A DNA stretch of 8,954 bases, taken from Pseudomonadota bacterium (GTDB lineage Bacteria > Pseudomonadota > Gammaproteobacteria > Steroidobacterales > Steroidobacteraceae). Shown one piece after another: positions 1-8,954 of this stretch; position 1 is the first letter of the stretch; each line of letters starts with the position of its first letter. The stretch covers positions 1 to 8,954 of the forward strand of contig JAKAZP010000081.1 in NCBI GenBank assembly GCA_021815905.1. Reading direction: 5' to 3'. Made by a program: the position numbers and the translations under genes. Below the pieces are notes generated by a model. It saw only the letters and a program-made list of their open reading frames with translations. It was not told the DNA's origin and did not search any database.

Positions 1-498
1 CGCGATGTCGAACGGCGAGGACTCATCGTCCGTGCTCACGCGCTGTGTCACGAGGTCGACCGTGGCCCGGTGGCGTTGCGGGTCCTCGCTCACCCAGCGG
101 GCGAGCCTCGCCACCGCCTCCGGCGCGAGCCGCGCGGGCAGCACGCCGTTGCGCAGGCAGTTTCGATGGAAGATCGAGCTGAACGACGGTGCGACCAGCG
201 CGCGAAAGCCGTATTCGGCGAGCGCCCACACGGCCTGCTCGCGGCTCGATCCGCAACCGAAGTTCTCGCCCGCGATGAGGATCCGCGCTCCCTGAAATGC
301 CGGGTCGTTCAGCGCGAAGCCCGGATCCGGGGTCCGGCCCTGGCCGGGCAGGTAACGCCAGTTCGCGAACAGCCCGTCCGCGAGGCCGGTCTTGCTGACG
401 GCGCGGATCTCCCGCGAAGGGATGATGGCGTCGGTGTCGATGTTGTCCCGCAGGAGCACCGCCGCCACCGCAGTCAACCGGGTGAAGGGTTGCGCCAT
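1..498 (-). CDS. LeuD-like hydro-lyase small subunit (isopropylmalate dehydratase family), 3' end cut by window
   Basis: Small (swivel-domain) subunit of a LeuCD-type hydro-lyase, which with the large subunit isomerises or hydrates hydroxy/unsaturated di- or tricarboxylates in the cytoplasm. 166 codons are visible; family members are usually about 200 residues, so only the C-terminus is missing off the left edge. Seen: NIDTDAIIPSREI near residues 19-31 and the LeuD hallmark GENFGCGSSREQAVWAL at 77-93, then PSFSSIFHRNCLRNGVLP at 104-121. The usual REHAPWAL of leucine-biosynthesis LeuD reads REQAVWAL here, a hint of a different substrate. The ATG at 498 lies 3 nt after the leuC-like stop, so the two are translationally coupled in one operon. 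The alternative is the genuine leucine-pathway subunit; a leuB gene beyond the edge cannot be excluded. Family is sure, substrate is not. Confidence 0.93.
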   Translation of the reverse strand, partial: MAQPFTRLTAVAAVLLRDNIDTDAIIPSREIRAVSKTGLADGLFANWRYLPGQGRTPDPGFALNDPAFQGARILIAGENFGCGSSREQAVWALAEYGFRALVAPSFSSIFHRNCLRNGVLPARLAPEAVARLARWVSEDPQRHRATVDLVTQRVSTDDESSPFDIA

Positions 499-501
499 CG
501 C

Positions 502-1905
502 TCAGCCCGCCGCCCCGCGCGGATCGGCGATGTGGCCGGCGATCGCCGAGGCAGCCACCGTCTCCGGACTCGCCAGATGAGTGCGGGTCTGCGGTCCCTG
601 TCGACCCTCGAAGTTGCGGTTGGTCGAGCTCACGATTCGCTGTCCGGGAGCGAAGCTCTCTCCGCCTGCGAAGAAGCACATGGAGCAGCCGGACTCGCGC
701 CATTCGAACCCCGCGCGCTCGAAAACGGAGGCGAGGCCCTCGGCTTCCGCGAGCTGCTTCACGCGGGTTGAGCCGGGAACGCAGATCGCGCGGACGCCTG
801 TCGCCACTTTTCGCCCCTCGAGGATCGCCGCCGCACGGCGCAGGTCGCTCAGCCGGCTGTTCGTGCAGGCGCCGATGAACGCCCCGTCTATCGGCAATCC
901 CTCGAGTCGTCGCGCCGGTTCGAGGCCCATGTATGCGAGCGCGCGCTCGTAGGCCGGCCTGCTCAGGCGCCCGGACACCGACGGGAACTCGGGGACGGAA
1001 CCGTCGATCGGCAGGGCATCCTGTGGGTTCGTTCCCCAGGTGATCATGGGCCGCACTTCGGCGGCGCTCACCACCACCTCGAGATCGAAGCGCGCGTCGG
1101 CGTCGCTGTGCAACTCCCGCCAGTTCCGCAGTGCGCGCTCGAACGACTCGCCCGAGGGGGCGAAGGGGCGTTCGCGAAGGTAGGCGAACGTCTGCTCGTC
1201 CGGGGCGATGAGGGCTGCGAACGCCGAGAGCTCGGTCGCCATGTTGCAGAGCGTCATCCGTCCGTCCATGTCCAGGCTGCCGACGGCCGGACCGGCGAAT
1301 TCGACCACGTAGCCTCTGGCGCCGGCGGCGCCGCGCGCGGCGATCAGGCTCAGAGCCAGGTCTTTCGCCGTGACCCCCGGCTGCAGAGCGCCCTCCATCG
1401 TAACGCGCATGGCGAGAGGCTTGGCGATGCGCAACGTCTGGGTCGCGAGCGCGTGCTCGGCATCCGTCGTGCCGATCCCCCAGGCGAGCGCGCCGACGGC
1501 GCCCTGTGTGCCGGTGTGGCTATCGGTGCAGACGAGCGTCAAGCCGGGCAATACGATGCCCTGCTCCGGGCCGATGACATGCACGATCCCCTGGCGGGGG
1601 TCGTCCACGTCGAACAGATGAATCCCCGCCGCGTGCGCCTCCCGGCGCGTGACCTCGATGAAGGGATTGCCGGCTCCCGCCGTCGCGCGCGAGTTCCGGC
1701 CCGGCCGCGTGTCGACCACGTGGTCCATGGTGGCGAAGACGCGCGCGGGATCCGCGACGCGATGACCCGCCTGACGCAGGCTCTGCAGCGCCAGCCCGCC
1801 GGTGCGCTCGTGGAGGAGGATTCGATCGAGCAGCAGCAGACCTCCGCCGGAGGTGTCGGCGATGAGGTGGGCGTTCCAGATCTTCTCGAAGAGAGTTGCC
1901 GGCAT
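502..1905 (-). CDS. LeuC-like [4Fe-4S] hydro-lyase large subunit
   Basis: Large, iron-sulfur subunit of a LeuCD-type dehydratase/isomerase, 467 residues, full length for bacterial LeuC. Seen: N-terminal TLFEKIW, VCTDSHTGTQGAVGALAWGIG (125-144), and three cluster-ligand cysteines: Cys347 in GACTNSR, and Cys407 and Cys410 in ESGCSMC. The tail STNRNFEGRQG followed by RTHL is the LeuC signature. After the last ligand, biosynthetic LeuC usually reads MCLAMN; here it is MCFFAGGE, a change next to the active site. The ATG at 1903-1905 gives the family's usual N-terminus, although no strong Shine-Dalgarno precedes it. It is the first gene of an operon with the LeuD-like subunit and is transcribed divergently from the GntR gene, with shared 24-bp site 1 in its promoter region. 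I infer a catabolic LeuCD (citraconate/citramalate or similar), given the CoA-transferase and lyase nearby; leucine biosynthesis remains possible. Confidence 0.93.
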   Translation of the reverse strand: MPATLFEKIWNAHLIADTSGGGLLLLDRILLHERTGGLALQSLRQAGHRVADPARVFATMDHVVDTRPGRNSRATAGAGNPFIEVTRREAHAAGIHLFDVDDPRQGIVHVIGPEQGIVLPGLTLVCTDSHTGTQGAVGALAWGIGTTDAEHALATQTLRIAKPLAMRVTMEGALQPGVTAKDLALSLIAARGAAGARGYVVEFAGPAVGSLDMDGRMTLCNMATELSAFAALIAPDEQTFAYLRERPFAPSGESFERALRNWRELHSDADARFDLEVVVSAAEVRPMITWGTNPQDALPIDGSVPEFPSVSGRLSRPAYERALAYMGLEPARRLEGLPIDGAFIGACTNSRLSDLRRAAAILEGRKVATGVRAICVPGSTRVKQLAEAEGLASVFERAGFEWRESGCSMCFFAGGESFAPGQRIVSSTNRNFEGRQGPQTRTHLASPETVAASAIAGHIADPRGAAG

Positions 1906-1956: not shown

Positions 1957-1980
1957 ATTTGATATATGGTTGTGACAAAT
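1957..1980. promoter_or_regulatory. Shared 24-bp operator-like element, site 1
   Basis: Inverted repeat ATTTG-N14-CAAAT in the divergent region between the leuC-like gene and the GntR gene. It aligns without gaps to sites 2 and 3: ATTTG, then A or C, TAT, four variable bases, an invariant TT at positions 14-15, three variable bases, and ACAAAT. At this copy the dyad extends outward: GGCCAATTTG (1952-1961) faces CAAATCGGCC (1976-1985) with one mismatch in ten. Plus-strand positions 4-12 (TGATATATG) resemble an extended -10. A regulator-binding site is inferred; the adjacent GntR protein is the obvious candidate. Confidence 0.7.
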
Positions 1981-2158
1981 CGGCCGAGCCGGCCGGCACG
2001 GGGAATACCGGCGGGTTGCGGGCCCGCGCGTCGACGGAGGCGCTCGCGGACGGCCGACCGTTGCCCTAGAATCGTGGCGCGGGGCGAGCGGGCGGCGACC
2101 CGGGCGATGGTGCCCGATCGCGGTTCCGGTCAGAAGGGAGACGCCGTCAAGGCGAGGC

Positions 2159-2908
2159 ATGCTAAACAAGAGCAAGCGGGCGGGGCTCGACAGATCCGCG
2201 GCGATTCCTCTTTATCATCAGATCTTCCTGCAGTTGCGGGACGAGATCCTCTCGGGACATCGCCCCCAGGGCTCCGCCATCGGAACGGAGAAGGAGATCT
2301 CGGCCGCTTACGAGGTGTCCCGGATCACCGCCCGGCGCGCGCTCGCCGAGCTCGCGCAGCAGCATTTCGTCGCGCGCAAGCGCCGCGTGGGCACGACGGT
2401 CATCTATCGTCCGCCGGTCAAGCCCATCGAGGCGAACATGGACCAGACGGTCGACTCGCTGCTCGAGTTCGGACGCGTCACTCGAGTGCGGGTGCTCGCG
2501 CTGCAGAAGGAGCTGGCGAGCGCCTGGGTGGCCGAGATGATGAGTCTCGATGCCGGGGAGCGGGTGCTGCGGGCCGATCGTGTCCGGTACCTGAAGGACG
2601 AGCCGCTCGGGTACATCATCAGTTATGTGCCGATCGCTCTGGCCGATCACGTCACGCGCAAGGAGCTCATGCATGCGCCCATCCTGGAGCTCATCAGGCG
2701 CGCCGGGTTCCGCCTCGGAAAGGCGAGCCAGACCGTCGCGGCGATGCTGGCCGACCCGCAGTTGTGCGAGGCGCTCGAGGTCGAGCCCCGCTCGGCGATC
2801 TTGCGCATCACCCGCTCGGTGTTCCAGCCGAATGGCGAGCCGCTCCTGCTCACCATCGCCCATTACCGCTCCGATCGCTATCAGCTGCGTCTCGATCTGC
2901 AGCACTGA
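2159..2908 (+). CDS. GntR-family (HutC subfamily) transcriptional regulator
   Basis: Ligand-responsive DNA-binding protein of 249 residues, the normal HutC-type size. Seen: an N-terminal winged helix-turn-helix, starting with IPLYHQIFLQLRDEILSG (16-33) and continuing GTEKEISAAYEVSRITARRAL (42-62, broken here as GTEKEISAAYEV / SRITARRAL), ending RKRRVGTTV (73-81). The remainder (about 95-246) has the UTRA effector-domain pattern, with conserved LRADRVRYLKDEPLGY (137-152) and the C-terminal VFQPNGEPLLLTIAHYRSDR (221-240). The ATG at 2159 has AAGG six bases upstream. The gene is divergent from the leuCD-like operon, with site 1 between them, and ends 4 bp from the convergent CoA-transferase gene. 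UTRA domains typically bind small metabolites, so the inducer is probably a pathway intermediate. I infer that it controls the three shared 24-bp sites; the site does not match the GT-N-TA-N-AC style reported for several GntR regulators, so this is untested. Confidence 0.92.
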   Translation: MLNKSKRAGLDRSAAIPLYHQIFLQLRDEILSGHRPQGSAIGTEKEISAAYEVSRITARRALAELAQQHFVARKRRVGTTVIYRPPVKPIEANMDQTVDSLLEFGRVTRVRVLALQKELASAWVAEMMSLDAGERVLRADRVRYLKDEPLGYIISYVPIALADHVTRKELMHAPILELIRRAGFRLGKASQTVAAMLADPQLCEALEVEPRSAILRITRSVFQPNGEPLLLTIAHYRSDRYQLRLDLQH

Positions 2909-2912
2909 GCCA

Positions 2913-4091
2913 TCAAGCGACGGCTCCGCTGCGCGCGAGCTCCTCGAAGCGCTCATCCGATATCCCGATCTCCCGGAGCACGGCGCGCGAGTCGCCTCCC
3001 GCGCTCGGAGGATTGCGGCGCAACCCGCAGCGCTGGCCGTCGATCTCGAGTGGCAGGCCCGGAAGTCTCGCGGACTTGCCGTCGGGGAGCGTGAGCTCGA
3101 GCAGACCGTGGCCGGCGGCGAGGTGCTCGTCCTCGAGCAGGTCCTCGGGCCGGGCGATCTTCGAGGCGGGTAGTCCCCTCGATTCGAGGCGCGAGAGCAA
3201 CTGCTCGCGCGCGTGGGCGGCAAACAGCGCGCGGATGCGGGGCAGGATCCGCTCGCGCTGCAAGATCCGTTGGTTGTTGGTCGCCAGCGCCGGGTCCGAG
3301 GCGAGCTCCTGCAGGGCGAATTCCGCGCAGAACGCCTGCCATTGCGCATCGCTCACCACCGCGAGAAAGATCTGCTGCCCGTCGGCGGTATCGAACACGT
3401 CGTATATGGCCCAGGCGGAGATGCGGGCGGGCATCGGGGCCGCCGGCTTGCCGGTGACCGCCAGCTGGGCGATGTGCTGTCCGACCAGGAACGCCGTGCT
3501 CTCGAAGAGCGAGCAGTCGACGCGCCCGCCGCGCCCCGAGCGATGACGCCGCTCGAGCAGGGCGAGGATGCCGATCACTCCGAACATGCCGCCCGTCACA
3601 TCGATCACCGAAGCCCCGGCGCGCAGCGGGCGGCCGGGCGGCCCCGTCATGTATGCCAGGCCGCCCATCATCTGCGCCACCTCGTCGAGTGCCGTGCGGT
3701 GCTCGTACGGGCCGCTCAGAAAGCCTTTGGCGGAACAGTAGACGAGTCGGGGATTGTCCCGGGCGACGGTGTCATAACCGAGACCCAGGCGATCGAGCGT
3801 CCCGGGGCGGAAATTCTCGACCAGGACGTCGGCGGTCTGGGCCAGCCTTCGGGCGACCTCGATTCCGGCCTCGGACTTCAGGTCGATGCAGACGCTGCGC
3901 TTGTTGCGGTTGTACATCGCGAAGTAGCCGGCGCCCGAGCCCTTGAGGCTCCGGGTCGGATCGCCTCCGGGGGGCTCCACCCGGATCACGTCCGCGCCGA
4001 GGTCCGCGAGCACGAGCCCGGCGGAGGGGCCCATCACCATGTGCGTGAACTCGAGTACGCGGATGCCGGTCAGCGGCGGATCGTTCGGCAT
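2913..4091 (-). CDS. CaiB/BaiF (type III) CoA-transferase
   Basis: Family III CoA-transferase moving CoA from an acyl-CoA donor to a carboxylate, 392 residues, typical length. Seen: the N-terminal GIRVLEFTHMVMGP and LADLGADVIRVEPPGGDP pattern, NRNKRSVCIDLKSEAG, DVLVENFRPGTLDRLGLGY, and the catalytic aspartate in ALDEVAQMMGG (Asp136 from the chosen start, equivalent to the formyl-CoA transferase nucleophile). The C-terminal half has GLPASKI and HLAAGHGLLEL, as in the family. The ATG at 4091 is preferred over the TTG at 4112 because GGGAGG lies just upstream of it. The gene is divergent from the lyase gene across site 2 and convergent with the GntR gene. The pairing suggests it makes the CoA thioester that the lyase cleaves, for example from a citramalate-like hydroxy acid. 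Substrate cannot be told from sequence, since family members act on oxalate, carnitine, malate, citramalate and aromatic acids. Confidence 0.93.
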   Translation of the reverse strand: MPNDPPLTGIRVLEFTHMVMGPSAGLVLADLGADVIRVEPPGGDPTRSLKGSGAGYFAMYNRNKRSVCIDLKSEAGIEVARRLAQTADVLVENFRPGTLDRLGLGYDTVARDNPRLVYCSAKGFLSGPYEHRTALDEVAQMMGGLAYMTGPPGRPLRAGASVIDVTGGMFGVIGILALLERRHRSGRGGRVDCSLFESTAFLVGQHIAQLAVTGKPAAPMPARISAWAIYDVFDTADGQQIFLAVVSDAQWQAFCAEFALQELASDPALATNNQRILQRERILPRIRALFAAHAREQLLSRLESRGLPASKIARPEDLLEDEHLAAGHGLLELTLPDGKSARLPGLPLEIDGQRCGLRRNPPSAGGDSRAVLREIGISDERFEELARSGAVA

Positions 4092-4094
4092 GGT

Positions 4095-4100
4095 CCTCCC
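4095..4100 (-). promoter_or_regulatory. Ribosome-binding site deciding the CoA-transferase start
   Basis: GGGAGG on the minus strand, three bases before the ATG at 4091. It favours this start over the in-frame TTG at 4112, which would add seven residues and has no comparable site. Confidence 0.6.
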
Positions 4101-4127
4101 GTGTGCTTCCAACGGCTGCAGGCGGAC

Positions 4128-4133
4128 ATTCTA
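4128..4133 (-). promoter_or_regulatory. Candidate -10 element for the CoA-transferase gene
   Basis: TAGAAT on the minus strand, five of six matches to the consensus. It lies about 37 bp upstream of the ATG and 18 bp downstream of site 2, so site 2 would cover the -35 region, the same geometry as in front of the leuC-like gene. No clear -35 hexamer is visible. Confidence 0.35.
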
Positions 4134-4151
4134 CATGCAGCGGCGGCTCTG

Positions 4152-4175
4152 ATTTGCTATCATATTATTACAAAT
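4152..4175. promoter_or_regulatory. Shared 24-bp operator-like element, site 2
   Basis: ATTTG-N14-CAAAT between the CoA-transferase and lyase genes, aligning without gaps to sites 1 and 3. It is the most symmetric copy: the half-site ATTTGCTATCAT and its opposite half agree at 9 of 12 positions. Plus-strand positions 4-12 read TGCTATCAT, a good extended -10 (TGnTATAAT type). That would start transcription near 4170 and give the lyase gene a leader of about 28 nt containing its ribosome-binding site. Repressor-over-promoter is the simplest reading. Confidence 0.72.
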
Positions 4176-4186
4176 GATCCCGTGCC

Positions 4187-4194
4187 GAGAGGAG
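4187..4194 (+). promoter_or_regulatory. Ribosome-binding site deciding the lyase start
   Basis: GAGAGGAG three bases before the ATG at 4198. An in-frame ATG at 4174 is discounted: it overlaps the end of site 2 and has no room for a ribosome-binding site in a transcript starting near 4170. Confidence 0.7.
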
Positions 4195-4197
4195 TCG

Positions 4198-5166
4198 ATG
4201 GCTGAGCGGCCGGTCCTGGTGAGCGAGGTGGGTCTGCGCGACGGGCTCCAGAGCATTCGCCCGGTCATGCCGACCGAGAGGAAGCTCGAATGGATCATGG
4301 CCGAAGCCGCCGCCGGGATCCGGGAGATCGAGGTCGGAAGCTTCGTGCCGCCGAAGTTGCTGCCGCAGCTTGCCGACACGGACGCGCTCGTCAGGTTCGC
4401 GCGCACGATTCCCGGGCTTTCCGTCGCCGTCCTCGTGCCGAACCTGCGCGGCGCCCAGGCAGCCGTCGATGCCGGGGCTCACAAGATCACCCTCCCGTGC
4501 TCCGTCAGCGAGACCCACAGCCTGCGCAACGTGCGCCAGAGCCATGCGCAACTGCTCGAGGGGGCCCGGGCGATCGCCGAGCTGTTGCACGCGGTGCCGC
4601 GGGAGCGGCGTCCGACCTTCGAAGCCTCCCTCTCGACGGCGTTCGGCTGCACGCTCGAGGGGCCCGTCCAACCTGACCGGGTCGCCGGGCTCGCCGAGCG
4701 GCTGATGGCCGCCGGCTGTGACGAGGTGGGGCTCGCGGACACCTCCGGCTATGCGGATCCGGCCGCGGTCCGGCGGCTGATCCGGCTGGTACGCTCGGTC
4801 GTCGGGAACGATGCGCTGACCGGCATTCACCTGCACAACACCCGTGGCCTGGGGCTCGCCAATGTCCTCGCGGGACTGGAGGAGGGCATCACGACCTTCG
4901 ACAGCTCCCTTGCCGGGCTCGGCGGCTGCCCGTTCGCGCCGGGCGCATCGGGCAACATCGTGACCGAAGACCTGTGTTTCATGTTGGAGGCCATGGGGAT
5001 CGAAACCGGAGTCGATCTCGAGGCGCTGCTGCGGGTGCGCGGGATTCTCTCCCGGGCGCTTCCGGGGGAGCCTCTCTACGGCTTCACCGCCGAGGCGGGG
5101 CTGCCGCTCGGGTTCGCCGGCCTCAGTCGATCGGGGTCGACGGAGTCCCGGCGAAGATCTCGATGA
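4198..5166 (+). CDS. HMG-CoA lyase family (DRE-TIM metallolyase), acyl-CoA lyase
   Basis: Divalent-metal TIM-barrel lyase splitting a 3-hydroxy-acyl-CoA type substrate into acetyl-CoA (or another acyl-CoA) and a keto acid; 322 residues, normal length. Active-site residues can be matched to human HMG-CoA lyase at constant offset: Arg14 and Asp15 in SEVGLRDGLQ, Glu45 in IEVGSFV, His211 and His213 in GIHLHNTRG, Cys244 in AGLGGCPFAPGASGN, Asn253. The metal-site loop reads HLHNTRG rather than the HCHDTYG of true HMG-CoA lyases, so the substrate may differ (citramalyl-CoA or similar is an inference). It is divergent from the CoA-transferase and probably driven from the -10-like core of site 2. After GFTAEAGLPLGF the tail is short, serine/arginine-rich and unlike the family; its last 44 bases overlap the convergent VOC gene, suggesting a lost original stop. 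The family is sure, the exact reaction is not. Confidence 0.92.
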   Translation: MAERPVLVSEVGLRDGLQSIRPVMPTERKLEWIMAEAAAGIREIEVGSFVPPKLLPQLADTDALVRFARTIPGLSVAVLVPNLRGAQAAVDAGAHKITLPCSVSETHSLRNVRQSHAQLLEGARAIAELLHAVPRERRPTFEASLSTAFGCTLEGPVQPDRVAGLAERLMAAGCDEVGLADTSGYADPAAVRRLIRLVRSVVGNDALTGIHLHNTRGLGLANVLAGLEEGITTFDSSLAGLGGCPFAPGASGNIVTEDLCFMLEAMGIETGVDLEALLRVRGILSRALPGEPLYGFTAEAGLPLGFAGLSRSGSTESRRRSR

Positions 5167-6058
5167 GCTCCCCTGCCGCGCCGCGCAGGCAGGCGCACGA
5201 GCCGCGCAGTCCGGGCAGCAGGCACTCGGACGCGGCGCCGATGCGGGGCAGGGCCTCGAGCGAATCGGCGTCGAAAGTGACGATGGCCATTCCGGGTGGC
5301 ACGCCGTCGGCGCTCGAGTCGCGGCGACGCGCGGAAGCGGGGTATTGATCGAGCTCGATCAGGGTGCCCCCGCTCAGGCGCACGAGGCCGTGTCGATGCG
5401 GGGTATCCTCCGGCAGCGAGTGGGCACGGGAGATGATGCCGATCGGCGTGGCGACCGGCGGATCGGTTCTGTTGCCGAAGAGCGCGTAGGGAGCATACAG
5501 GGCATCGGCGTCCGGACCCGCGACGACGGCGATGAATACCCGACCGACGAACGATCGAGCGGACGGGAGATCGAGCCCCGAGCCCGGCCCGATCTGAGTG
5601 AAATAACAGCACTCCCCCGCCGGACCGAGCGCCTGCATGGCGCGAATCATCGGAAAGCGGGTCAGCGGTTTCGGAGGACCGATGATCCGGAACTCGCTGT
5701 GATCGAGCCGCGCCGCAAGCGCCTCCACGTCCTGCACCACGAACTCGGTCGCGTTCCAGCCGAAGGTGGTGAGGGCGGTCCAGCCCCCGGCATCGGCGTC
5801 CTCGATGAAGCGCAGGAAGACGAGCTCGCCGCTCGCGGGGGCCAGTGTCAGCATCGGACGGCCCGCGGCCGCGGGCGCGGTCCACGAGCGCGCCTCGGCA
5901 TCCGATACCCGCCGCCTGCCGAGGACGAGGTAGCCGAGACGGTTCCGATACGCCCGCTCGATGGCATCGAGGTCTGGGACGGAATACGTGACGGCGCGAA
6001 TCGCGCCGAGCAGGGGACGCGAGGCGGGGGCGCTGATCGTCCCGGGCTGAATGGACAT
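5123..6058 (-). CDS. VOC (glyoxalase/extradiol dioxygenase fold) family protein
   Basis: Cytoplasmic 311-residue protein with four VOC-type beta-alpha-beta modules, the size of two-domain type I extradiol dioxygenases. Seen: AIRAVTYSVPDLDAIERAY (19-37) starting module 1, ATEFVVQDVEALAARL (103-118) module 2, GRVFIAVVAGPDADALYAP (172-190) module 3, and MAIVTFDADSLEAL (257-270) module 4. Strand ends GTLIELDQYP (231-240) and GELIEIFAG (297-305) keep the glutamates that are metal ligands in many VOC enzymes. The histidines expected on the opposing strands are absent: Tyr25, Phe175 and Ile259 lie near those places. It may therefore be a binding or non-iron VOC protein rather than a ring-cleavage dioxygenase. 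The ATG at 6058 is chosen because the extension above it is low-complexity arginine/alanine and would run into site 3; a TTG in between is possible, as the ribosome site is weak. It overlaps the lyase gene tail-to-tail. Confidence 0.8.
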   Translation of the reverse strand: MSIQPGTISAPASRPLLGAIRAVTYSVPDLDAIERAYRNRLGYLVLGRRRVSDAEARSWTAPAAAGRPMLTLAPASGELVFLRFIEDADAGGWTALTTFGWNATEFVVQDVEALAARLDHSEFRIIGPPKPLTRFPMIRAMQALGPAGECCYFTQIGPGSGLDLPSARSFVGRVFIAVVAGPDADALYAPYALFGNRTDPPVATPIGIISRAHSLPEDTPHRHGLVRLSGGTLIELDQYPASARRRDSSADGVPPGMAIVTFDADSLEALPRIGAASECLLPGLRGSCACLRGAAGELIEIFAGTPSTPID

Positions 6059-6087
6059 GAACGTGCCGGCAGGAGATGTCGGGGCGG

Positions 6088-6096
6088 ATCGTAGCA
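6088..6096 (-). promoter_or_regulatory. Candidate extended -10 for the VOC gene
   Basis: TGCTACGAT on the minus strand: a TGn extension followed by TACGAT (five of six matches). It is 29 bp upstream of the VOC ATG and would give a leader of about 22 nt. It lies some 65 bp from site 3, so control of this gene by site 3 would be less direct than for the other genes. Confidence 0.4.
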
Positions 6097-6160
6097 AGTT
6101 CCGCCGGGCCGTCGCATCCGGTCGGGGCGCCGCGCGCGGGCCCGTGCGCCGCCCCGGCGC

Positions 6161-6184
6161 ATTTGCTATAGTCTTACGACAAAT
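6161..6184. promoter_or_regulatory. Shared 24-bp operator-like element, site 3
   Basis: ATTTG-N14-CAAAT between the VOC gene and the small-protein/methyltransferase operon, colinear with sites 1 and 2. Plus-strand positions 4-12 read TGCTATAGT, an extended -10 with five of six hexamer matches. It would start transcription near 6179, with a leader of about 28 nt to the GTG at 6207, the same layout as at site 2. The run of G+C on its left makes it stand out sharply. Confidence 0.7.
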
Positions 6185-6193
6185 TATGCGGCC

Positions 6194-6199
6194 AAGAGG
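6194..6199 (+). promoter_or_regulatory. Ribosome-binding site deciding the small-protein start
   Basis: AAGAGG with seven bases to the GTG at 6207. An in-frame ATG at 6186 sits 2 bp after site 3 and would leave a leader too short for a ribosome-binding site if transcription starts near 6179, so the GTG is preferred. Confidence 0.6.
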
Positions 6200-6206
6200 C
6201 GATGCG

Positions 6207-6512
6207 GTGAGCAAGGAACGGCCTTACTTCCTCGCGCCAGAGCTCGAGCGGGTGCTCGCGATCGCAATGACGCTCGCGCAGGAGCTCGCCGTGGCGCGCT
6301 CGCGCATCGACACCCTCGAGCGGCTGCTCGAGCGAAAAGGCCTGATCGGCCGTTCGGAGCTCGAAGCATTCGAGCCGACCTCCCTCGAGCACACCGAGCG
6401 CGCTCGAGAGAGCGCGGAGTATGTCGACCGGATCCTGCGAGGATTCGGGGAAGACCTCGAGCGCATGCGTGCCGCGGCCGATTCATCCGGCTCCGGCGCC
6501 GATCCGGGGTGA
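6207..6512 (+). CDS. Small helical/coiled-coil protein of unknown function, GTG start
   Basis: 101-residue soluble protein that I do not recognise. Seen: YFLAPELERVLAIAM (7-21), then an uninterrupted heptad-like stretch to about residue 44 including SRIDTLERLLERKGL, a second short motif IGRSELEAF (47-55), a further amphipathic helix RARESAEYVDRILRGF (65-80), and a flexible Ser/Gly/Asp-rich tail. No signal peptide, membrane segment or cysteine. The segment LERLLERKGLIGRSELEA recalls the helical linker in some enzyme subunits and partner proteins, for example the N-terminus of nitrile hydratase subunits, but this is only a visual resemblance. It is the first gene of an operon with the methyltransferase (4 nt between stop and ATG), directly behind site 3. 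A dimerisation partner or chaperone for the methyltransferase is a guess. It is judged real by good start signals, coupling and non-random residue pattern. Confidence 0.82.
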   Translation: MSKERPYFLAPELERVLAIAMTLAQELAVARSRIDTLERLLERKGLIGRSELEAFEPTSLEHTERARESAEYVDRILRGFGEDLERMRAAADSSGSGADPG

Positions 6513-6516
6513 GCCG

Positions 6517-7641
6517 ATGGACATGCATCGTAGCCAGCCTCACGCGATGCTCGCACGGCAGACCTGCGACGACCGTGCGCGCGCGCAGTTCATCATCGGC
6601 TTGAAGCGACGGCTGCGCGCCCTGGCGAGCGGCAACGAGCTGACGTACGCCGTGCGCGCGACGCCGAAGTTCCGCGCGCTGCACGGACGGGCGCCGGAGT
6701 CGGTCGAGGAGATGCGCACGGCGATGACCGGCGAGCCGTACTACAGGCTCTGGAGCGCGCTCTCCCGGGGCGCGCAGGAGATGATGTGGGACATCGTCGA
6801 GACCACGATCAACCGTGACATGCCGCGGATGCTCGAGACGGCAACCCGCCTCACCCGCGCGGGCGAAACCAGGGGCTCGCTGTCGCTCGATCCCGAGCTC
6901 GCGCCTCCGGAGGACGTGCTGGTGGCGGACATCCACTGCCAGCCCGGCGGCTACATGCGCGATCGCAACCCCGATGACATCCTGGCGGGGGCGCTGTACG
7001 AAAGCGGCGGCAGCCTCTATTCGTCGGGCGTCGGGATCGGGCATCGCGACAGCAAGGCCGGGGCGGTGATCGCCCACCTGGCCGGGCGGTTTCCCGAGCT
7101 CAGGCCGCGGCGAATACTCGATCTCGGCTGCTCGGCGGGCGGCGCCTCGGTCGCCTACGCGGCGAGCTTTCCCGATGCCGAAGTGCACGCGATCGACGCG
7201 GGGCCCGCGATCCTGCGCTACGCCCATGCCAGGGCGGAGGCGCTCGGCGTGGCCGTGCACTTCCATCAGATGGATGTGCGAAGGCTCGGATTCCCGGACG
7301 AGTCGTTCGACCTCGTCGTCTCGCACAATCTGATGCACGAGATCTCCAACGACACGCTGGACCATCTGTTCTCCGAGTCGCACAGGCTGCTGCGGCCGGG
7401 GGGGCTCGCCGTGCACCAGGACGTGCCGATCCGGGGGCGGCGCAGCCTGTTCGAGCGCTTCATGTTCGCCTGGGAGACCGAGTACAACAACGAGCCTTTC
7501 TGGCAGGAGTTTGCCGAGGCCGACGTCACTCGGGCCCTGGCGCGCGCGGGTTTCGATCCGGCCTCGATCTCCGAGGCGGAGCTGGCGAAGCTCGATGGAC
7601 CGGGATCGTGGTACGTGGTGCTCGCCCGGAAATCAGCTTGA
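6517..7641 (+). CDS. Class I SAM-dependent methyltransferase with long N-terminal domain
   Basis: 374-residue cytoplasmic enzyme transferring a methyl group from S-adenosylmethionine to an unidentified acceptor. Seen: motif I LDLGCSAGGASVAYA (201-215), acidic motif II ending Asp227 (VHAIDAG), FHQMDVRRLGFPDESFDLVV (249-268), SHNLMHEI (269-276) in the motif IV region, and RLLRPGGLAVHQDVP (290-304). The first 190 residues are a separate, mainly helical region with TPKFRALHGRAP (49-60) and GEPYYRLWSALSRGAQEMMWD (72-92, i.e. GEPYYRLWSAL plus SRGAQEMMWD), which I cannot assign; it probably shapes the substrate pocket. The ATG at 6517 is chosen because it follows the small gene's stop by 4 nt with GGGGTG upstream; a longer reading would overlap that gene. 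Its stop overlaps the convergent aldehyde dehydrogenase by 9 bp. A natural-product or aromatic-acid O-methyltransferase are alternatives, and the acceptor is open. Confidence 0.9.
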   Translation: MDMHRSQPHAMLARQTCDDRARAQFIIGLKRRLRALASGNELTYAVRATPKFRALHGRAPESVEEMRTAMTGEPYYRLWSALSRGAQEMMWDIVETTINRDMPRMLETATRLTRAGETRGSLSLDPELAPPEDVLVADIHCQPGGYMRDRNPDDILAGALYESGGSLYSSGVGIGHRDSKAGAVIAHLAGRFPELRPRRILDLGCSAGGASVAYAASFPDAEVHAIDAGPAILRYAHARAEALGVAVHFHQMDVRRLGFPDESFDLVVSHNLMHEISNDTLDHLFSESHRLLRPGGLAVHQDVPIRGRRSLFERFMFAWETEYNNEPFWQEFAEADVTRALARAGFDPASISEAELAKLDGPGSWYVVLARKSA

Positions 7642-8954
7642 CCCGAGCTGCAGCATCGGCGCCGCCTCGACCGGCAGGGTGGTGGCTTTTTCCGTCGTGT
7701 AGAACTGCATCGATGCCTGACCGCCCTCGCGGCCCATCCCCGAGTCCTTCACGCCGCCGAATGGGGCGCGCAGCTCCCGCACCATGGGCGTGTTGACCCA
7801 AACGACGCCGCTGCGGATCGCGCGGCTCGCATGAAAGACCGTCGGCAGATGCTCCGACCAGACATACGAGACGAGCCCGAAAGGGGAGTCGTTGGCGATC
7901 GCGATCGCCTCGTCCGCATCGTCGAAGACGAGAAAGCTCGCGAACGGGCCGAAGATCTCCTCCTGGCATATCCGGGCTCTCGGATCGGTCGCCAGTACCG
8001 CCGTCGGCTGCATGAAGAACCCGCGCTCGCCGGCTCTCGCCCGCGCCCCGCCGGTGAGCACTCGCGCGCCATCCGCACGCGCGACGTCGACGTAGCCGAG
8101 GACGCGGTCGAGGTGGGCGCGGAATGCGAGCGGGCCGATCTCGGTGCCCGGGTCCATCGGGTCGCCGATCCGCAGCTTCTTCGTCCTGGCGACGAACCGG
8201 TCGATGAAGTCGTCCGCGATCGAGCGCTCGACCAGGATGCGCGAGCCCGCGAGACACTGCTGTCCGTTGTTCGAGAAGATGCCGAGCAGGGCGCCGTCGA
8301 GGGCCCGATCGAGAGCGGCGGAGGCGAACACGATGTTGGCCGATTTGCCTCCGAGCTCGAGCGAGCACGGCTTGAGGTCCGCGCCCGCCGCCGCCATGAT
8401 CGTACGGCCGGTTCCGGTGCCGCCGGTGAACGAGACCAGGTTGACCTGCGGATGGCGCACCAGGGCATCGCCGGTGACGGGACCCCGGCCGCAGACCATG
8501 TTCACGACGCCCGGGGGCACGCCGGCCTCGACGATGAGATCCATCAGACGCGCCACGGCAAGCGGCGTCTGCTCGGCCGGCTTCGCGACGCAGCAGTTGC
8601 CGAAGGCGATGCAGCCCGCGATCTTCATCGAGGTGAGCGCAAGCGGAGCGTTCCAGGGACCGATGAGCGCCGCGACGCCGATCGGCTCCCGCGTGACGAA
8701 TGTCAGGTAGCGCGAGTCCTGCGTGTACACCTGTCCGGCGGTCTGGCCGATGAACTCCGCGAAGAACTCGAAGTTGAGCGCCGCGCGAGGGATCTGCCCG
8801 AGGGCGAGGTGCCGCATCGGGATTCCCGAATTGAGACATTCGAGGTACGCAAGCTCCGCGGAGTGATCGCGGATGAGGGCGGCCACCCGGCGCAGGATCC
8901 CCTGCCGCTCGGCGACCTGCATGCGCGGCCACGGCCCGTGAGCGAACGCGCGGC
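7633..8954 (-). CDS. NAD(P)-dependent aldehyde dehydrogenase, N-terminus cut by window
   Basis: Oxidises an aldehyde or semialdehyde to the acid. About 439 residues are visible of a usual 480-500; the frame is open to the right edge and reads AHGPWPRM just above the internal ATG at 8922, the normal ALDH sequence at that place, so the true start is outside. Counting from that internal Met: GPWNAPL (Asn91, oxyanion hole), SFTGGTGTG (164-172, cofactor loop), LELGGKSA (Glu189, general base), NNGQQCLAGSR (Cys223, nucleophile), then EEIFGPF and RAPFGGVKDSGMGREGG near the C-terminus followed by QFYTTEK. The latter pattern resembles 5-carboxymethyl-2-hydroxymuconate and 2-hydroxymuconate semialdehyde dehydrogenases (HpcC/HpaE group) by eye. 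It might supply a dicarboxylate to the LeuCD-like hydratase. Any promoter lies off the window, so whether it carries the 24-bp site is unknown. Confidence 0.93.
   Translation of the reverse strand, partial: RAFAHGPWPRMQVAERQGILRRVAALIRDHSAELAYLECLNSGIPMRHLALGQIPRAALNFEFFAEFIGQTAGQVYTQDSRYLTFVTREPIGVAALIGPWNAPLALTSMKIAGCIAFGNCCVAKPAEQTPLAVARLMDLIVEAGVPPGVVNMVCGRGPVTGDALVRHPQVNLVSFTGGTGTGRTIMAAAGADLKPCSLELGGKSANIVFASAALDRALDGALLGIFSNNGQQCLAGSRILVERSIADDFIDRFVARTKKLRIGDPMDPGTEIGPLAFRAHLDRVLGYVDVARADGARVLTGGARARAGERGFFMQPTAVLATDPRARICQEEIFGPFASFLVFDDADEAIAIANDSPFGLVSYVWSEHLPTVFHASRAIRSGVVWVNTPMVRELRAPFGGVKDSGMGREGGQASMQFYTTEKATTLPVEAAPMLQLGSS

Follow-up and report, generated by a model that had tools for sequence, protein, structure and literature searches.

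An 8,954-bp stretch of contig JAKAZP010000081.1 (assembly GCA_021815905.1, a gammaproteobacterium of the Steroidobacteraceae), the whole of which is called the window here, holds three copies of a 24-bp element and a gene, gntR, that encodes a HutC-type GntR regulator. The element is a single dyad motif whose sequence and placement at the same genes are shared by distant Proteobacteria (Steroidobacteraceae, Sphingomonadales), and it is concentrated in genomes and contigs that bear this gntR. Judged from sequence comparison, the three sites are very probably operators at which a GntR dimer would sit on the dyad and repress the adjoining genes until an inducer releases it.

A dyad element in three divergent gaps

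A preliminary description of the window had proposed that three AT-rich 24-bp sites in divergent promoter regions share one pattern. A pattern search bears this out: ATTTGNTATNNNNTTNNNACAAAT matches exactly at all three sites, each time on the forward strand, and in none of 200 dinucleotide shuffles of the window. A fourth match, with three mismatches, is the other-strand reading of the site at 4152. The sites lie between leuC and gntR, between the CoA-transferase and HMG-CoA-lyase-like genes, and between the VOC and small-protein genes (Table 1). They are AT-rich islands in DNA of 69% G+C; every listed 24-mer with at least 17 A/T overlaps them, though 24-mers with 16 A/T also occur elsewhere, at 1922 and 2203-2204.

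What the preliminary description did not note is the inverted-repeat structure of the element: it is an imperfect dyad, ATTTGnTATA-N4-TATAnCAAAT in the window sites and in scans of related loci, so that its direction is arbitrary. Of the 24 positions, 14, 18 and 14 are self-complementary in sites 1, 2 and 3. The central columns 11-14 carry only 0.13-0.19 bits each in a matrix of related sites, and of the common letters TT first assigned to columns 14-15, relatives keep only the T at 15. With the matrix that combines related and window sites (the second matrix described below), the three sites score 31.1, 29.8 and 24.3; the next-best window position scores 0.4 and overlaps site 2, and the best non-overlapping one scores -7.5. 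Although permuted matrices yield many promoter hits at low thresholds, we give almost no credence to the idea that AT-rich promoter islands merely resemble one another by chance in GC-rich DNA: shuffled sequence gave no match, the three window positions alone score high, and the matches are concentrated in one cluster per genome.

Conservation across loci and genomes

A search for GntR homologues yielded 565 proteins, of which 120 were listed and 33 of those aligned with the window protein. The loci compared are the best 80 of 170 confirmed genome places (L001-L080). L001-L005 are contigs of metagenome-assembled genomes (MAGs) with a GntR 74-83% identical to that of the window, L006-L068 are mostly Sphingomonadales (47-62%), and L069-L080 are distant loci (34-40%). 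One close GntR match, 77% identical, is labelled Steroidobacteraceae. A regular-expression scan of the 80 loci for TTTG-N14-CAAA, later superseded by matrices, gave 48 matches against about 9 in Markov-simulated sequence. The first matrix was trained on all loci and used for site lists by locus, regulon content, gap medians and -35 counts; these are descriptive because the matrix was trained on the same loci. The second matrix was built from 202 distinct sites of L001-L068 and the window and made symmetric. The tests given weight here relied either on a matrix of just the three window sites or on one whose training left out L069-L080.

At a threshold of 12 and within -300 to +30 of the projected start, the three-site matrix finds the motif in L006-L068 at the 5' ends of all 35 lyase genes, 32/33 CoA-transferase genes, 16/19 VOC genes and 26/36 methyltransferase genes. 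A site is present at 149 of 248 gene 5' ends in total, compared with a mean of 42.2 and a maximum of 124 in 200 runs with permuted matrices; the 5'-end counts are not independent, because divergent genes share sites and the loci are related. The motif is thus conserved in related clusters, and the sites track operons through rearrangements among them. In the closest relatives, sites scoring at least 18 lie at leuC/gntR in L001, L003 and L004 (L002 begins at gntR), at CoA-transferase/lyase in all four of L001-L004, and ahead of a TonB receptor in L001, L002 and L004. In L069-L080, which were not used in training, 8 of 12 gntR genes have a site starting at most 150 bp upstream of the matched start, several of them with different neighbours, and none of 500 simulated sequences per gene reached the site score.

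Genome scans give the same picture. The symmetric pattern, with up to two mismatches, occurs at 54 places in ten genomes (41 Mb). Comparison of match and locus coordinates puts 39 of these within 20-kb gntR loci, about 0.5% of the sequence scanned, and the 15 places outside compare with 14 in all for a reversed-pattern control. In the five closest genomes, a window-like pattern loosened to fit L001-L005 and allowed one mismatch has all 13 of its places on the gntR contig, 12 of them inside the loci studied; the reversed control has none. The family that includes the genome of L024 (a Sphingomonas MAG) was scanned in 149 genomes, nine of which carry gntR at E 1e-50. Eight of these nine contain the pattern, with one mismatch, at 19 places, of which 18 are no more than 25 kb from gntR; among the 140 that lack this gntR, 22 contain it (Fisher P 9e-6). 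Several of the nine are sources of the loci from which the pattern was drawn. The reversed control gave 20 places in 13 of the 149 genomes. The motif is thus not spread over many unrelated promoters, and the dedicated regulon first proposed is strongly supported by conserved positions, co-occurrence with gntR and the genome scans. A distinct, near-perfect palindrome close to ACATGTTATA-N4-TATAACATAA occurs once each in 10 of the 140 gntR-less genomes (G018, G052, G063, G071, G079, G085, G129, G131, G144 and G146; for example, G018:C2:551705-551728) and is perhaps the operator of another regulator.

The predicted regulator and its probable mode of action

The GntR protein combines an N-terminal winged helix-turn-helix (wHTH) domain (PF00392, 1e-14, 54.3 bits against a cut-off of 27) with a C-terminal UTRA effector domain (PF07702, 2.7e-30, 105.5 bits against 23.8), and its matches in the PDB include NagR/YvoA and DasR. 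NagR/YvoA of Bacillus subtilis, from the same GntR/HutC subfamily, has the same domain build, dyad operators and relief by a pathway metabolite; its similarity to the window protein is low (59.6 bits). Arg55, which aligns with NagR Arg48, is invariant in all 34 proteins (window protein included), and the position aligned with NagR Arg38 is Lys in 19, Gln in 14 and Asn in one. NagR Arg48 reads a guanine, and PMC4333415 describes the dre-sites of NagR and DasR as about 14-15 bp long, with 6 bp between half-sites and two arginines that read the guanines at -5 and -4. The present element differs in being 24 bp long, with one conserved G per half-site at -8, TATA at -6 to -3, and the G and C 14 bp apart. 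These differences, together with Lys, Gln or Asn in place of Arg38, set it apart from the dre-site type, and a NagR-type identity is not adopted. A single arginine, Arg55, would fit a single conserved G per half-site by analogy with NagR. Three half-sites staggered by 8 bp form two overlapping dyads in L008 (17136-17167), L011 (16660-16691) and L009 (7390-7421), and such arrays could bind two dimers.

The best NCBIfam match of the regulator is HutC, the histidine utilization repressor of Proteobacteria and a member of the same subfamily, at 106.6 bits, far below the equivalog cut-off of 220; HutC identity is not adopted, and no hut genes are found among the genes annotated or scanned, which cover part of the loci. 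HutC is described as controlling a local catabolic regulon, which in Sphingomonadales includes a TonB-dependent transporter (PMC5343134). The window protein can be seen as a regulator of a known subfamily that would work like other local catabolic repressors, with the wide operator as a possible variant. No description of this operator or regulon appears among the papers listed by searches of open-licence PMC literature.

Among six gene types examined for a -35 box in register with the motif, enrichment appears at the lyase alone. At many of the lyase promoters in relatives, the motif's TATA occupies the expected position of the -10 box, and 23 of 40 have a -35-like hexamer 15-18 bp before it, where 0.55 would be expected (related loci are counted separately). 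The aligned hexamer and TATA support promoter occlusion at the lyase; at the other genes we infer it. Median gaps from site end to projected start are 19 bp for the lyase, 26 bp for the CoA-transferase, 30 bp for VOC, 43.5 bp for leuC, 59 bp for the methyltransferase and 131 bp for gntR; in the window itself, gntR and VOC lie 178 and 102 bp from their sites. A GntR dimer bound to the dyad would cover the core promoter and block transcription of leuCD, the CoA-transferase, the lyase and the small-protein/methyltransferase operon, and probably also of gntR and VOC, until a pathway metabolite bound by the UTRA domain releases it. Site 2 includes TGnTATnnT, which resembles the extended -10 consensus, and together with the -35-like partners at lyase promoters this could suggest that the element is a common core promoter motif, an AT-rich extended -10, rather than an operator. 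Such a reading is very improbable: both arms of the 24-bp dyad are conserved and visible even in single sites, where a -10 box needs no such arms, and a general promoter would be expected at many genes, whereas the matches are concentrated in one cluster.

Several results weigh against the proposal that the sites are operators of this GntR. The three-site matrix, applied as above, finds a near site at just 26/63 gntR and 14/35 leuC genes and at none of 27 small-protein genes, which in related loci mostly lie downstream of the methyltransferase gene. At a threshold of 8, the permuted-matrix maximum is 152 against 153 observed, because AT-rich promoters alone yield numerous weak hits. A distance of 14 bp separates the conserved G and C, against half-site spacings of 5-8 bp given for NagR, FadR and AraR in PMC4333415, which implies either an unusual geometry or a different contact. 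L001-L004, the closest relatives, show no listed site scoring at least 18 that adjoins VOC or methyltransferase homologues (L003 has no listed methyltransferase match), so that support for site 3 comes from the window itself and from L006-L068. The distant gntR genes of L069, L073, L078 and L079 have no site, although L073 and L078 offer less than 170 bp of upstream sequence. Family genomes without this gntR hold 30 pattern places, one of the nine with it holds none, and the patterns for all three genome scans were written after the loci had been seen and were not blind. Aligned -35 hexamers are rare outside the lyase (CaiB 3/37, VOC 1/17, methyltransferase 1/27, leuC 0/18, gntR 0/29), and no clear -35 is seen at the window's own lyase promoter. 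Gene by gene, the membership first listed holds best for the CoA-transferase and lyase and is good for leuC in the closest relatives; VOC and the methyltransferase belong only via L006-L068.

Two alternatives concern the regulator. With 0 to 3 motif-aligned -35 boxes at each non-lyase gene type, the geometry there leaves room for GntR as an activator, or as dual-acting, rather than a simple repressor. This is unlikely, since the median gaps of 19-30 bp at the lyase, CoA-transferase and VOC genes put the site level with the core promoter or downstream of it, where repressors usually bind, and HutC-type GntR regulators are mostly repressors. The operators might instead belong to another regulator, encoded elsewhere, that controls the same clusters: an upstream site is missing from 4 of the 12 distant gntR genes, the dyad exceeds known GntR operators in width, and binding by GntR is a prediction. 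We consider this quite improbable, because the motif stands upstream of gntR in the other eight, several with different neighbours, and across genomes it tends to accompany gntR. Moreover, no gene other than gntR is annotated as a regulator in the L081 stretch or in the catabolic part of L082; many genes in both are labelled hypothetical, and a sigma-like gene and a ParB gene of L082 lie beyond 36 kb.

Window genes, regulon content and a possible pathway

Table 1. Genes and candidate operator sites of the window
Feature	Positions	Strand	Basis
leuD-like hydratase small subunit, cut by window end	1..498	-	LeuD equivalog_domain 173 vs cut-off 116.25
leuC-like hydratase large subunit	502..1905	-	passes two LeuC subfamily cut-offs
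Candidate operator site 1, imperfect 24-bp dyad, leuC/gntR gap	1957..1980	none	exact match; score 31.1
gntR, HutC-type GntR regulator (wHTH + UTRA)	2159..2908	+	PF00392, PF07702
CaiB-type (family III) CoA-transferase	2913..4112	-	PF02515 1.7e-112
Candidate operator site 2, CoA-transferase/HMG-CoA-lyase-like gap	4152..4175	none	exact match; score 29.8
HMG-CoA-lyase-like lyase	4198..5166	+	PF00682 9.5e-44 (open reading frame taken from 4174)
Two-domain VOC-fold protein	5123..6058	-	fold only; without Pfam match
Candidate operator site 3, VOC/small-protein-methyltransferase operon gap; weakest of three	6161..6184	none	exact match; score 24.3
Small protein, 108 aa or shorter; homologues adjoin methyltransferase in relatives	6186..6512	+	open reading frame and homologues
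Class I S-adenosylmethionine methyltransferase, long N-terminal extension	6517..7641	+	PF13649 1.7e-23 (open reading frame taken from 6421)
Aldehyde dehydrogenase, start and promoter beyond window	7633-8954	-	best NCBIfam HpaE, under its cut-off

The leuC-like product scores 556.6, just under the leuC equivalog_domain cut-off of 560.25, and the truncated LeuD match lies above its own (Table 1). The context is catabolic, and a biosynthetic LeuCD identity is not adopted. In L043 (18060-19444), the leuC-like gene matches as three separate pieces and is perhaps broken or an assembly error. The best NCBIfam match of the CoA-transferase is succinate--glutarate CoA-transferase (244.3 bits, under its cut-off of 750). 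The lyase passes the HMG-CoA lyase subfamily cut-off (269.9 bits against 246), and its top PDB matches are HMG-CoA lyases; its start is more likely at 4198 than at 4174, because site 2 overlaps the ATG at 4174. An AlphaFold2 model of the VOC protein (pLDDT 91, from 24 aligned sequences) resembles glyoxalase I and VOC dioxygenases best among PDB folds, with TM about 0.6.

Regulon content in relatives was drawn from 72 loci (L001-L068 and four plasmid stretches) with the all-loci matrix at a score of at least 20. The 241 sites include 22 without a called downstream gene, and the remainder lead to 278 distinct proteins. By number of loci, the largest site-linked groups are TonB receptor (40), CoA-transferase (29), methyltransferase (26), lyase (26), gntR (21), MFS carrier (16), VOC (14), leuC (11), alpha/beta hydrolase (10) and FAD oxidoreductase (9), where groups without a window counterpart are named from one or few members each. 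The predicted regulon in relatives is larger than the list first given for the window in that it takes in a TonB receptor, MFS carriers, hydrolases and oxidoreductases. The neighbours in L001, for example, include a TonB receptor with two sites ahead of it, a cupin, an MFS carrier and an allantoinase-like hydrolase. HapK/REDY-like proteins are known from prodigiosin-type clusters; a small protein of this kind (PF11639 in the L007 member) is encoded directly behind a site in L007 (14143-14481) and six other loci. The Acidiphilium multivorum plasmid of L084, typed as conjugative and from another alphaproteobacterial family, carries CoA-transferase and gntR genes with transposase genes between them (9530-15753), an arrangement that suggests horizontal spread.

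PuuE and AllB are both known allantoinases, with two unrelated folds. Across 73 loci (flanks of at most 10 kb, or 20 kb in plasmids), cyclic-amide hydrolases are of PuuE type in 46, of AllB type in four and of neither in 23, and the two types never occur together; since the four loci of AllB type are closely related to one another, this mutual exclusion is no more than suggestive. Downstream of the lyase gene in L024 and in three annotated plasmid stretches come a gene of the isochorismatase family and two of the polysaccharide-deacetylase family. Against the PDB, the L024 isochorismatase-family protein matches N-carbamoylsarcosine amidohydrolases and the one of its two deacetylase-family proteins that was compared matches PuuE allantoinase; all three fall under NCBIfam cut-offs. 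The window, which ends inside leuD, shows no cyclic-amide hydrolase. The half-amide product of the cyclic imidase HxnM is cleaved by an amidase, and HxnM is reported to resemble HpPgdA in structure; among characterized proteins, PuuE is the nearest to HpPgdA (PMC9304392). The PuuE/AllB-type hydrolases in these clusters and the likeness of HxnM to a PuuE relative weakly suggest a pathway in which a cyclic imide is opened first and a substituted maleate or malate is degraded thereafter.

A 2-substituted maleate or malate could plausibly be processed in turn by a LeuCD-like hydratase, CaiB and an HMG-CoA-lyase-like enzyme. Itaconate degradation in Pseudomonas (Ict, Ich, Ccl) likewise employs a hydratase, a CoA-transferase and a lyase on a branched dicarboxylate, and dimethylmaleate hydratase (DmdAB) is a LeuCD-like hydratase. 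The clusters described here differ in combining LeuCD, CaiB and an HMG-CoA-lyase-like enzyme, with cyclic-amide hydrolases added in relatives. A tentative and rather doubtful scheme is a catabolic regulon in which an imported compound would undergo ring opening at a cyclic imide or amide and then de-amidation, giving a substituted maleate. The LeuCD-like enzyme would hydrate this maleate, CaiB would activate the product and the HMG-CoA-lyase-like enzyme would cleave it. The inducer would be of maleate or malate type, the source could be a substituted maleimide, e.g., from tetrapyrroles, and control would lie with a GntR that has an unusually wide operator.

The dyad would join loosely annotated genes in dozens of environmental genomes as a single regulated pathway, for which it points to a candidate regulator. 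In any genome with this gntR, more genes of the pathway can be sought by means of the operator, and the inducer would indicate the substrate. If GntR binds it, so wide a dyad would broaden the known range of DNA recognition by GntR regulators.

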